Source: an uncultured Holophagaceae bacterium (lineage in GTDB: Bacteria; Acidobacteriota; Holophagae; Holophagales; Holophagaceae). Taken from it: a stretch of DNA of 44,785 nt. The first letter of the stretch is position 1. The number at the start of each line of letters is the position of its first letter. Location: the NCBI GenBank assembly GCA_903840385.1, contig CAIMFT010000207.1, positions 1 to 44,785 on the forward strand, written 5' to 3'. A program made the translations under genes and the position numbers. Below are positions 22,342 to 25,623 of this stretch, in pieces. Under the pieces are notes generated by a model, which worked only from the letters and a program-made list of their open reading frames with translations, made no database searches and had not been told where the DNA came from.

Positions 22342-22350
22342 GGGGTAAAA

Positions 22351-22413
22351 GCTATCAGGTATCGGCTATCGGCTGTCAGCTATCAGCTGTCAGCTGTCAG
22401 CTATCGGCTGTCA
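22351..22413. repeat. nine tandem copies of a heptanucleotide
   Basis: Nine uninterrupted 7-base units, consensus GCTRTCR on the plus strand (GCTGTCA four times, GCTATCA twice, GCTATCG twice, one GGTATCG). The array runs from 10 bases before the mutL ATG to the stop codon of the upstream membrane-protein gene. That TGA is itself part of the outermost unit. Read on the minus strand the unit is TGAYAGC, so TGA appears in many units and in all frames. The unit is nearly self-complementary, so the array can fold into imperfect hairpins. Length change by slippage would alter the mutL 5' region without touching its coding sequence. Confidence 0.95.
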
Positions 22414-22821
22414 GCGGTTGGTGGCGAGGTGGCCTAGGTAGGCCAGCAGGAACACGCCCGAAGCAAGGCCGTGGGTCCAGGCGAAGCCGGTCCGCACGGC
22501 CGGGCTGGTCACCACCTGGATGGCGCCGCCGCTGAGCACCATGGGGGCGATGAAGAGCGCCGCCCCCAGCCCCGTGCGACGGCCCTCGGCACCCCCCTGC
22601 AGCCGCGCCCAGAGGTGGCCGCGCACCAGCATCCCCAGGGTGAAGACCAGCAGCGGACCCACCAGCACGTGCAGGTGCTGGGCCGTCCCCAGCCAGGGGT
22701 GGGCCTCCGGTCCGAAGGGGCCCGGCCGCTCGCCATACCAGCGCAGCAGGCCGTCCAGCAGGCCTGTGCCCGCAGTGACCAGGGCGGCGAGGTGCAGGCT
22801 CCAGCGCTCCAGGGGGGTCAT
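22411..22821 (-). CDS. four-helix, His-rich membrane protein (possible b-type cytochrome)
   Basis: A 136-residue inner-membrane protein with four predicted helices at about 8-26, 48-66, 84-104 and 112-131. Histidines 10, 49, 51, 69, 117 and 131 lie in or at the ends of helices, as in small cytochrome b or DUF4405-type haem proteins that partner flavinylated proteins. I cannot assign a named family with certainty. Its ATG overlaps the stop of the FMN-binding gene (ATGA), so the two are translationally coupled. The inferred job is passing electrons between the quinone pool and the extracytoplasmic FMN protein. The stop codon is made from the first unit of the heptamer array. Confidence 0.75.
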   Translation of the reverse strand: MTPLERWSLHLAALVTAGTGLLDGLLRWYGERPGPFGPEAHPWLGTAQHLHVLVGPLLVFTLGMLVRGHLWARLQGGAEGRRTGLGAALFIAPMVLSGGAIQVVTSPAVRTGFAWTHGLASGVFLLAYLGHLATNR

Positions 22822-23336
22822 CTCGCCTCCCGGTAGAGCACCTGGTGGAGGGCCAGGCAGCGGCGGGCCGCATCGGTCATGGCATGAGCCGTGAGGGTGG
22901 CACCGGACAGTGGGTGAATGGCCCCCTTCAGGCTGAGCTGAGGGTCCAGGCCCTTGCCGTCAAACTGCCGGACCCAGGCCTCCTTGGCCAGGTACTCGGC
23001 GGGCTCGCGGAACACCACCGCCTCCACCCGCAGGATCCGGCCCTCGGCAGAGATCGCCACCAGGAGAGTCTCGTTCAGGGTGCGCACCCGGTGGGTGTCG
23101 AAGAGCCCGACGCCCACCAGCACTCCGCCCCTGCGAGCCTCGTAGGCCACGATCCAGGTCCCGGCCAGGTCCACCTGGGCCAGGGCTTTGACTCGCCCCG
23201 CCTGGGCCTCGCTGAGGGTGTGCTCCTGGCGCAGCAGCTGGGCCCCGGGGAAGGCCAGGGCCAGGGCCTCCTGGGGGGAGGGCAGGGCCGCACCGAGGGG
23301 CAGGGTCAGCAGCAGGAGGGCGAGCAGACGGAGCAT
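22818..23336 (-). CDS. exported FMN-binding-domain protein (RnfG/NqrC type)
   Basis: A 172-residue protein with a signal peptide (MLRLLALLLLTLPLGAALP) and one FMN-binding domain. The flavinylation motif SGATLT is at residues 144-149. By analogy with NqrC and RnfG, Thr149 would be esterified to FMN by ApbE outside the cytoplasm. The apbE gene is two genes upstream in the same operon, which strongly supports this. The ATG at 23336 is preceded by GAGG at about 8 bases. The open frame extends further upstream but that part shadows the porin gene. It overlaps the next gene by ATGA. Electron donor and acceptor are not shown by the sequence. Confidence 0.88.
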   Translation of the reverse strand: MLRLLALLLLTLPLGAALPSPQEALALAFPGAQLLRQEHTLSEAQAGRVKALAQVDLAGTWIVAYEARRGGVLVGVGLFDTHRVRTLNETLLVAISAEGRILRVEAVVFREPAEYLAKEAWVRQFDGKGLDPQLSLKGAIHPLSGATLTAHAMTDAARRCLALHQVLYREAR

Positions 23337-23344
23337 TGGGGACC

Positions 23345-24610
23345 TCAGAAGGTGTAGCCCAGGGCGAGGCTGAACTGGTTGCGGCCGGTGCGGGCGTGGC
23401 TTTCGTCCCGGGTCCAGTCGGCCTTCACCGCCACCTGGGGGATGGGCTTGAAGGCCAGGCCCGCCGTCAGCAGGGTCCGGTCCTCGGCGAGGTCCCTCAC
23501 AACACCCGGCACCACCGCCTGCTGGGGGTCGAGCCGCTCGTACCGGACATAGGGGACCAGGGCCATGCGGGAGCCCTGCAGGACGTCGTAGCCCAGCTCC
23601 AGGTAGCCGCCCCACTGCTGCGTACCCACGGTGCGGGCGGGGTCGGTCGGCTCCAGGGCGGCGACCCCGGCGGCCCGGTTGGTGGTGGCGGCGTAGAGGC
23701 CCCGCACCTGGAGGCCCTGGCCCCGGTACTCGGCGTGGACGTCCCAGAGGGTGGTGGTGAGGGCCGGGCCCGTCCCCGACTGATTGCTGTTGCCCGTGTA
23801 GAAGCTGGCCCCGAGGAGCACACCGTTCCGAGGGGTCCAGTCCAGCCGACCGGTCCAGGCGAGGCTCTGGGCCTGGGCCTTGTTGCCGTCCTGGCGGCCA
23901 TCGGCGATGCCGCTGGCGGAGAACCGGGCACCGTTGAGCCCGTTCATGAGGTAGACCCGGTAGCTGAGGCCGCCGGCCAGGTCCCCATGCACGCCCACGC
24001 CGACCTCGTGCCAGGTGCTCGGGATGATGGTCTGCTCCACCTGGGGGCGGCGGGCCCCCAGGAAGGCCGGCGGCTCGTGCAGCTCATTGACGAAGCCCAT
24101 GGGCACGAGCAGCTGACCGGCCCGCAGGTTGATGGCTTTGTGCAGCAGAAAGTCCAGGTAGTAGAACTCGGCAATGGCCTCGCCCTCGGGATGTTCGTCG
24201 CTGAAGCCCCCATGCTCGAACTCGATCTCGGCGTTGAAGACGATGCGGTCGCTGAACTTGTAGCCGGTGTAGAGGACCATGCGCAGGGCGTCTGCGGTCT
24301 TCTCGCTGCCGACGTGCGTGCCGTCCTGCAGGGTGCTGGCCTTCCCCTGGTAGAGCAGCTCGCCATAGCCCCCCACACTGAGCCCCGGCGCTGCGCCGTA
24401 GACCTTGCTGGCGCTGGCCCCCAGGCCGAAGCGGCCCTCCTCGGTCAGGACTGGGGCGGTGCTGCCTGTCTTCAGAGACTCCAGCTCCCTGGACAGGGCC
24501 TCCAGGCGGCGCTCCAGGTCGGCCATGCGCTGGTCCGGGTTCGGCTTGTCCTGGGCCCAGACAGCGCTGGCCAGCAGGGTGCAGAGGAGGGGGCGAAGGA
24601 GCAGGTTCAT
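23345..24610 (-). CDS. outer-membrane porin-like beta-barrel with N-terminal coiled coil
   Basis: A 421-residue protein with a signal peptide (about 1-19) and a short coiled coil (about 27-48, MADLERRLEALSRELESL). A long barrel follows of alternating strands rich in Gly and aromatic residues, ending in Phe as outer-membrane proteins do (LALGYTF). It resembles the phosphate-selective (OprO/OprP-like) porin superfamily, but substrate cannot be told. It starts inside the end of apbE (ATGA overlap at 24607-24610) and is followed 8 bp later by the FMN-binding gene. Being bracketed by two flavinylation genes suggests a role in letting an electron acceptor or metal complex through the outer membrane. 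Confidence 0.85.
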   Translation of the reverse strand: MNLLLRPLLCTLLASAVWAQDKPNPDQRMADLERRLEALSRELESLKTGSTAPVLTEEGRFGLGASASKVYGAAPGLSVGGYGELLYQGKASTLQDGTHVGSEKTADALRMVLYTGYKFSDRIVFNAEIEFEHGGFSDEHPEGEAIAEFYYLDFLLHKAINLRAGQLLVPMGFVNELHEPPAFLGARRPQVEQTIIPSTWHEVGVGVHGDLAGGLSYRVYLMNGLNGARFSASGIADGRQDGNKAQAQSLAWTGRLDWTPRNGVLLGASFYTGNSNQSGTGPALTTTLWDVHAEYRGQGLQVRGLYAATTNRAAGVAALEPTDPARTVGTQQWGGYLELGYDVLQGSRMALVPYVRYERLDPQQAVVPGVVRDLAEDRTLLTAGLAFKPIPQVAVKADWTRDESHARTGRNQFSLALGYTF

Positions 24611-25578
24611 CGGGACTCCCGGGGCAGCAGGGTGGGTTGCAGGGACAGGAAGGCCTGGGTCATCCGGAGCTCACCGTCGTTGAGCAGGAAGGCGGCCGCG
24701 ACGCCCTGGTGCTCGGCCCAGGCCAGGCCGGCCTCGGGGCCCAGGACGTAGAGGGCCGTGGACAGCACGTCGGCACTGAGGGCTTCGCTGGCCACCACGG
24801 CGGTGCTGCCCCAGGCCGCACAGGGCTGGCCGCTGCGGGGGTCCAAGAGGTGTCGCCCCCGCTCGGACGTGCCGCTGCAGGACAGGGAGGCGTCCCTCAG
24901 GAGGAGGCTGCAGCAGGGTCGGAGTCGGTCCAGGGGGTCAGCGATGTCGACCCTCAGGGCGTGGCCCCAGGCCAGCACCTGGCCGCCGAAGTCCAGCCAC
25001 CCGGAGGGTACCCCCGCCGCCTTGCGCATGGCCTCCAGGGCATAGCCCTTGAGGAAGCCGCCCTCCTCCACACCGGCCCTGGGGTGCGCCAGCCGGGCCG
25101 TACCGCTGCTCGGATCCAGCACCAGCAGGGCCGAGCCAGAGGCCTGGCGGGCCGCTGCCAACGTGGCGGCAGCCGGCGTCCGCCCCCCCTGGCGGGTACC
25201 CCAGGCCTGGAGCAGGGCCATGAGCACGGGGTTGAAGGCCCCCTCCGTCCGTCGGTGCCAGGCCTGGACCTGCGCCAGCAGCTCCATCCATTCCGCCGCC
25301 AGGGGCACTGCGCGACCTTCGGCGGCGTTGAGGCGGCTCCAGGCCGAGGCGGGGTTCCAGGTGGAGCAGGCGGCCTCGATGCGGGCTGTCTCTGCCAGGG
25401 CCAGCTCCGAGGCCTGGCCCAGGTCCCCATCCCCCTCCAGGTGCAGACGGAGCTGGGTCCCCATGGCCAAGACGGTGCGGTCCAAGACCGGGCGAGGGCT
25501 GAGCCCGGAGACCTCGGCCACCGGGGTCGCGGTCAGCAGGAAGGGGAGGGCAAGCACGATCATGAGACCGAGTCTCAT
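24607..25578 (-). CDS. apbE: FAD:protein FMN transferase
   Basis: Exported ApbE-type enzyme that moves FMN from FAD onto a Thr of target proteins. N-terminal hydrophobic signal (MRLGLMIVLALPFLL), then VLAMGTQLRLHL, the helix with STWNPASAWSRLN, GAFNPVL, GGFLKGYAL, WLDFGGQVLAWG, and the C-terminal metal-binding VVASEALSADVLSTALYVLG. It is about 323 residues from the ATG at 25578. A TTG at 25599 could extend it by 7 residues, and neither has a good ribosome site. First gene of the operon. The target is almost certainly the SGATLT protein encoded two genes downstream. A palindrome and a CRP/FNR-like dyad lie just upstream. Confidence 0.93.
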   Translation of the reverse strand: MRLGLMIVLALPFLLTATPVAEVSGLSPRPVLDRTVLAMGTQLRLHLEGDGDLGQASELALAETARIEAACSTWNPASAWSRLNAAEGRAVPLAAEWMELLAQVQAWHRRTEGAFNPVLMALLQAWGTRQGGRTPAAATLAAARQASGSALLVLDPSSGTARLAHPRAGVEEGGFLKGYALEAMRKAAGVPSGWLDFGGQVLAWGHALRVDIADPLDRLRPCCSLLLRDASLSCSGTSERGRHLLDPRSGQPCAAWGSTAVVASEALSADVLSTALYVLGPEAGLAWAEHQGVAAAFLLNDGELRMTQAFLSLQPTLLPRESR

Positions 25579-25606: not shown

Positions 25607-25623
25607 TTGAGAATATGTCTCAA
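25607..25623. promoter_or_regulatory. 17-bp palindrome upstream of apbE, Fur-like
   Basis: Perfect 6-bp arms TTGAGA and TCTCAA flank five bases. The general form (TTGAGAAT...TCTCAA) resembles Fur-family operators of the TGAGAAT-N-ATTCTCA style. On the minus strand it covers a TATTCT hexamer (25616-25611) that could be the -10 box of the apbE operon, so binding would block the promoter. The regulator is inferred only from this resemblance. Confidence 0.4.

Follow-up and report, generated by a model that had tools for sequence, protein, structure and literature searches.

What is a porin doing in an operon for protein flavinylation? The question is raised by a window of 44,785 nucleotides, the whole stretch of DNA analyzed here, from an uncultured bacterium of the family Holophagaceae in the phylum Acidobacteriota (GenBank assembly GCA_903840385.1, contig CAIMFT010000207.1). 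Four genes on its minus strand (22411-25578) are transcribed in the order apbE, porin, flavin mononucleotide (FMN) protein, and membrane protein, with 4-bp ATGA overlaps at the apbE/porin and FMN protein/membrane protein junctions and a gap of 8 bp between the porin and FMN genes. The original prediction, made from the DNA letters, described this arrangement correctly, and its view of the locus as a conserved flavinylation operon with a single ApbE-type FMN protein is supported; it went on to propose a minimal pathway from quinone to the cell surface. The analysis described below leads to a different function. The operon probably encodes an iron-repressed, assimilatory module for ferric reduction in the periplasm, a reading drawn from sequence comparison. 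Fur-type operators, together with Fur-family, FeoB, and FTR1 genes next to the operon, favor iron assimilation over metal respiration.

Fur-type operators and iron-related neighbors

The genome analyzed is an acidobacterial assembly of 3.1 Mb that is 91% complete; L-numbers are labels of the loci compared. Upstream regions were matched against the Fur-box-like palindrome TGANAATNATTNTCA, with agreement required at ≥10 of the 12 fixed positions. Of the 108 loci, 43 have such a palindrome ahead of the operon, compared with 0.3 expected from shuffled sequences, and 28 of the 43 box-bearing loci lie outside the window's genus. The strict pattern TGAGAN5TCTCA occurs at three sites in the genome, two of them at this operon (expectation for the window, 0.03), and most of the window's relatives within its genus also have two boxes spaced by about 45 bp. 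The third genomic site (L226, 2814-2828), next to a gene of the TetR type, was set aside as chance or as the operator of that gene. The boxes of L123 and L120 are identical to Fur sites listed for iron transporters of Enterococcus faecalis (PMC6056675). With a Fur-type operator in its promoter region, the operon is a candidate member of a Fur regulon. Neither a sigma-70 promoter nor a terminator was found for it by consensus, and the start of apbE, with candidates at TTG 25599, ATG 25578, and ATG 25563, is uncertain because the palindromic box overlaps ATG 25578.

Neighboring genes were compared by BLAST of selected open reading frames (ORFs); shadow ORFs antisense to the operon, which form some of the largest clusters, were ignored. 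Genes for Fur-family regulators lie by the operon in ∼17 distinct loci, most of them directly upstream and codirectional, where a rough estimate (few Fur genes among thousands) gives well under one Fur neighbor expected in 100 flanks; these regulators score below the NCBIfam equivalog cutoff. FeoB, scoring above its curated cutoff, is encoded beside the operon in six loci, FTR1 directly upstream of it in L110, and a DtxR-type repressor divergently from it in L156. A FeoB gene is also present elsewhere in the window's genome. Within the window itself, mutL lies downstream of the operon, and the divergent gene upstream is predicted by inspection to encode a peptidase/TolB-like protein.

A predicted diheme cytochrome b in four helices

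The membrane protein of the window matches no Pfam or NCBIfam family. It contains seven histidines, at positions 10, 41, 49, 51, 69, 117, and 131, which corrects the original count of six helix-associated or helix-end histidines. In an alignment of 73 relatives, four of the seven (His51, His69, His117, and His131) are unchanged in all 73, and the same holds for Gly84 and Gln102. The AlphaFold (AF2) model is a four-helix bundle with a mean predicted local distance difference test score (pLDDT) of 90.5, in which the second transmembrane helix (TM2) bears His51 and His69 and TM4 bears His117 and His131. Because TM2 and TM4 are parallel and the two histidines of each helix, 18 and 14 residues apart, share one face, His51/His117 and His69/His131 could each hold a heme, and the helix positions point to two bis-His sites laid out as in cytochrome b of the bc1 and b6f complexes. 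Among the best natural structural matches of the model are the hydrogenase cytochrome b HyaC, cytochrome b6, the superoxide oxidase CybB, and FdnI; 4D2, a designed diheme protein, is likewise near the top. Unrelated bundles appear in the same match list, and helical bundles reach high Z scores by chance, so it is the histidine pattern that carries the diheme argument. Modeling of this 136-residue protein, a check proposed at the outset, accordingly found paired histidines in the fold and diheme cytochromes b as the closest natural folds; a four-helix bundle with four invariant histidines that fit two predicted bis-His sites would belong to the diheme cytochrome b fold. Positive charges in the TM2-TM3 loop and at both ends suggest that both termini are cytoplasmic.

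Remote kinship of the membrane protein to cytochrome b561 or to DUF4405 is possible. The cytochrome b561 profile (PF01292) matches 9 of 29 relatives, with a best E value of 3.7e-6 (L098 scores 16.6 bits against a cutoff of 30.1), and relatives match DUF4405 (PF14358) weakly, with a best E value of 0.0026 and a best score of 18.7 bits against a cutoff of 26.7; the window protein is matched by neither. Membership in DUF4405 was rejected on account of these subcutoff scores and of four helices versus a six-TM fold. A sequence search of solved structures returned no relative of the membrane protein and none of the porin, for which there was one coiled-coil match.

The 3′ end of the membrane protein gene runs into a repeat array at 22350-22415, between this gene and mutL, in which a 7-bp unit (AGCTATC/GGCTGTC) occurs about nine times. 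The window protein ends in this array at 136 amino acids, and most relatives are ∼150 amino acids long.

The FMN carrier, its transferase, and the porin

The apbE product matches the Pfam ApbE family (PF02424) with 157.3 bits (cutoff, 25.6; E value, 7e-46). The FMN protein has a signal peptide and a C-terminal FMN_bind domain (PF04205; 24.8 bits, cutoff 22) with an SGATLT motif. Under the ApbE target rule [S/T]GA[S/T], as it is given in PMC8238504, the SGAT at residues 144 to 147 makes Thr147 the predicted FMN target and not Thr149, which had been named originally. Asp80, His82, Arg85, Glu111, and Tyr115 are invariant among the aligned relatives. This is the sole FMN_bind protein in the assembly, and membership in an Rnf or Nqr complex was rejected: its score with the RnfG model is 16.7 bits against a cutoff of 205, and the 91% complete assembly encodes no other FMN_bind protein. 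The second ApbE of the genome is encoded in an operon of the known DUF3570/DUF4266/thioredoxin type. That second flavinylation operon (L183, 5983-9242, on genome contig C20) combines genes for a thioredoxin-DUF4266 fusion, DUF3570, ApbE, and a DsbD_N-like protein of short length.

The AF2 model of the porin (pLDDT, 86.1) begins with a coiled coil that leads into a 16-strand barrel, and its Foldseek matches include OmpC, PorB, and OprP (E values, ∼1e-12 to 1e-13), which places it among the general 16-strand porins. Porin_O_P (PF07396) weakly matches 9 of 27 relatives (best E value, 1.9e-5) and leaves the window porin unmatched; weak matches to DUF3375 and ABC_tran_CTD were dismissed as probable coiled-coil artifacts. 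Three glutamates at alternate positions of strand 3 (Glu128, Glu130, and Glu132) are invariant in all 27 relatives, as are His133, Glu148, His178, Glu179, Glu192, and several arginines. Charges that alternate in this way would be expected to point into the lumen, which makes a metal- or chelate-selective channel plausible. Predicted as an ordinary 16-strand channel, the porin would not serve as a wire to the surface. The features of the operon are listed in Table 1.

Table 1 Positions in the window of the operon genes, predicted ligand and flavinylation sites, and candidate operators
Feature	Positions	Strand	Basis
apbE, exported flavin adenine dinucleotide (FAD):protein FMN transferase	24607-25578	-	323 amino acids (aa) from ATG 25578; Pfam ApbE; first gene of conserved order
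Porin, 421 aa; signal peptide, coiled coil, and predicted 16-strand barrel	23345-24610	-	AF2 model; Foldseek; Porin_O_P matches in 9/27 relatives
Secreted FMN_bind protein, 172 aa, one flavinylation motif	22818-23336	-	Pfam FMN_bind
Four-helix membrane protein, 136 aa, predicted diheme cytochrome b	22411-22821	-	AF2 model; structural matches
SGATLT flavinylation motif, residues 144-149; predicted FMN site Thr147	22890-22907	-	Thr/Ser at 147 in 81/81 relatives
His51 codon, predicted periplasmic-side heme ligand, TM2	22669-22671	-	Invariant 73/73
His69 codon, predicted cytoplasmic-side heme ligand, TM2	22615-22617	-	Invariant 73/73
His117 codon, predicted periplasmic-side heme ligand, TM4	22471-22473	-	Invariant 73/73
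His131 codon, predicted cytoplasmic-side heme ligand, TM4	22429-22431	-	Invariant 73/73
Upstream Fur-box-like palindrome TGAGAATATGTCTCA	25608-25622		10/12 consensus positions; 0/100 shuffles
Second Fur-box-like palindrome TGAGACCGAGTCTCA, over apbE start	25563-25577		Strict pattern; paired boxes in genus

Conservation of the module across phyla

The operon and its flanks are common to the window and L163, and the gene order is identical in every checked locus of the same genus that covers the operon. Of 396 acidobacterial genomes sampled, 99 encode the membrane protein, and they represent 53 of 210 genera; some complete genomes of the window's genus lack it, and it is therefore accessory. Most sampled loci from other acidobacterial families follow either apbE-porin-FMN-membrane or porin-FMN-membrane-apbE; in L088, the membrane protein gene is divergent. 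Public genomes of many phyla were scanned with the FMN protein as the query, which yielded 80 loci, some of which duplicate loci of the acidobacterial-family sample. All four genes occur together in 60 of them, mostly in the order of the window, and the porin and FMN genes are adjacent almost everywhere. The carriers belong to Acidobacteriota, Planctomycetota, Gemmatimonadota, and Myxococcota, with some labeled Gammaproteobacteria and Leptospiraceae, although the phylum labels of single metagenome-assembled genomes may be wrong. Strong matches to the membrane protein were found in 17 of 294 sampled genomes of Planctomycetota (the phylum of L108), 14 of 200 of Gemmatimonadota (that of L116), and 2 of 189 of Myxococcota (that of L130); viral contigs contained no relative of it. 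The original prediction had called for a search for the same gene order in other genomes, and that order is kept at all three levels: in the genus, in other families, and across phyla.

A distant branch, with the order porin-FMN-apbE-membrane, is plasmid borne in three isolates, Methylocystis heyeri, Ideonella dechloratans, and Bradyrhizobium, where the porin and the membrane protein carry the annotation "hypothetical." On the M. heyeri plasmid (L232, 2234-10114), the distant module lies beside multicopper oxidases and a ferritin-like protein.

In four loci (L142, 3745-4257; L145, 1751-2263; L154, 5877-6395; and L169, 6613-7125), the FMN gene is followed by an unrelated membrane protein of ∼171 amino acids with conserved His73, His75, and His88 and no Pfam family, and the four-helix gene is missing. 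Because another histidine-bearing membrane protein occupies the same slot, the electron-input component of the module seems to be exchangeable between lineages. The chances are about even that these operons form an undescribed, cross-phylum class of flavinylation system, namely, a Fur-controlled envelope ferric reductase that combines a dedicated porin and a single covalent-FMN carrier with diheme cytochromes b of a new four-helix family, ∼136 to 150 amino acids long, whose slot is filled in some lineages by the unrelated histidine-bearing protein.

Variants of the component genes were also observed. The four-helix protein and ApbE are fused in one ORF in L089 (1501-2922), and a Holophagaceae relative (L096, 8409-13966) has two tandem genes of this porin family in one operon. 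In L100, L102, L117, and L125, a second, weakly ApbE-like gene (∼80 to 100 bits) lies convergently and directly downstream of the operon.

Proposed function and alternatives

In the proposed mechanism, iron scarcity would cause Fur to leave its operators, and the porin would admit small ferric complexes to the periplasm. ApbE would attach FMN to Thr147 of the FMN protein, and the membrane protein would bind two b hemes, one between His51 and His117 on the periplasmic side and the other between His69 and His131 on the cytoplasmic side. Electrons, presumably taken from quinol, would pass through the b hemes to the covalent FMN, which would reduce Fe(III), the presumed substrate, to Fe(II) for import by FeoB, which the genome encodes, or by FTR1.

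Several observations weigh against this account. The feoAB genes of the window's genus were tested for a comparable box and yielded no convincing site, and hardly any strict box lies elsewhere in the genome than at this operon; the regulator could therefore be a dedicated Fur-family paralogue instead of the global Fur. Many boxes of Planctomycetota read TGAGACTNAGTCTCA, off the classic Fur center, and most loci have no adjacent iron transporter. The distant proteobacterial versions are without good boxes and adjoin cytochrome c peroxidase or copper oxidases. These plasmid-borne neighbors, which include a ferritin-like protein, and the subcutoff scores of the adjacent Fur-family regulators would fit a module whose porin admits some other small acceptor for reduction, be it copper, manganese, peroxide, or an organic compound, with a metal- or stress-specific Fur-family protein as its regulator. 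This is judged unlikely, given that the curated FeoB matches and FTR1 adjoin the operon and that some boxes are identical to known Fur sites.

The dissimilatory route proposed originally, in which the porin holds or passes the flavoprotein and electrons from quinone reach external metals or shuttles, appears similarly improbable. The FMN protein and a predicted b-type cytochrome are present, the porin and FMN genes stay together, and the window bacterium is Geothrix-like, Geothrix being a genus known for iron reduction. Its absence of a multiheme cytochrome from the operon was borne out by a search for CXXCH motifs, which found no multiheme cytochrome in the window and related loci beyond two ORFs with two motifs each. 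However, the barrel is of the 16-strand, OmpC/OprP-like kind and not a wide one around a heme wire, the outer membrane cannot be spanned with just one FMN motif, the module is missing from complete genomes of the window's genus, and the Fur-type operators and the Fur, FeoB, and FTR1 neighbors favor assimilation. Inward flow, with the FMN protein oxidizing Fe(II) or another donor and passing electrons to the quinone pool, is very unlikely: the direction of flow is not readable from sequence, and the Methylocystis version adjoins multicopper oxidases and a ferritin-like protein, but Fur-type repression under iron sufficiency and the FeoB and FTR1 neighbors fit uptake better.

If the assimilatory reading is true, the module would have a defined role, reductive iron uptake via a general porin and not via siderophore receptors, and few natural diheme membrane cytochromes would be as small as its membrane protein. 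Operons that pair a flavin protein with a porin in iron-reducing genera would then need not be respiratory conduits.

Comparison with known systems

The flavinylation systems surveyed include NapH-like, MsrQ-like, PepSY-like, DsbD, and NQR/RNF-like types (PMC8238504) and, later, DUF4405 (PMC11334425). The main text of these surveys holds no description of the four-gene module; related systems are known (PepSY/DUF2271, DUF4405, and the psp porin), and the combination seems undescribed there. According to PMC11334425, about half of the genomes with ApbE machinery are without a characterized flavinylation system, a gap that the module, if real, would partly fill for Acidobacteriota, Planctomycetota, and Gemmatimonadota, where many members are uncultured.

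The PepSY-like/DUF2271 clusters and FoxB (PMC8238504, PMC11334425) resemble the module in combining ApbE, an extracytosolic flavoprotein, and a small diheme membrane protein, and the PepSY clusters are described as Fur repressed and tied to iron reduction (PMC8238504). They differ in having a three-TM PepSY cytochrome and a DUF2271 substrate, as opposed to a four-TM protein and FMN_bind, and their outer membrane partner, where present, is a TonB receptor instead of a porin. Membership in this group was rejected, as a Pfam scan of all four window proteins found no PepSY or DUF2271 domain. The DUF4405 cytochromes are likewise membrane proteins of apbE clusters with four central conserved histidines, and the recombinant protein binds heme b (PMC11334425); they are six-TM proteins partnered with Flavodoxin_4, with no porin described in that source, whereas the window protein has four TM helices, an FMN_bind partner, and a porin.

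A porin in a flavinylation operon, singled out originally as the unusual part, is not without precedent. DUF3570/DUF4266/thioredoxin operons (PMC8238504) also contain ApbE and encode a protein of ∼420 amino acids, but DUF3570 is, as described there, itself flavinylated and tied to DsbD-type thiol chemistry, whereas the window operon has a separate carrier and porin plus a predicted cytochrome. The MtrAB-type conduits (PMC5566968) likewise pair an outer membrane barrel with a periplasmic redox protein. Membership was rejected here as well, because these conduits have decaheme cytochromes and barrels of 24 to 32 strands, compared with one flavin, no multiheme partner, and 16 strands in the window operon. 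The closest forerunner of the iron reading is psp, a porin of Geobacter metallireducens and Desulfuromonas that a 2004 study predicted to be Fur controlled, with two tandem Fur boxes ahead of it and weak similarity to PF07396 (PMC545781). PF07396 weakly matches 9 of 27 relatives of the window porin, and the window operon has two Fur-box-like palindromes near its start; psp was reported as a ferrous iron porin with no mention of flavinylation partners, whereas the window porin has them.

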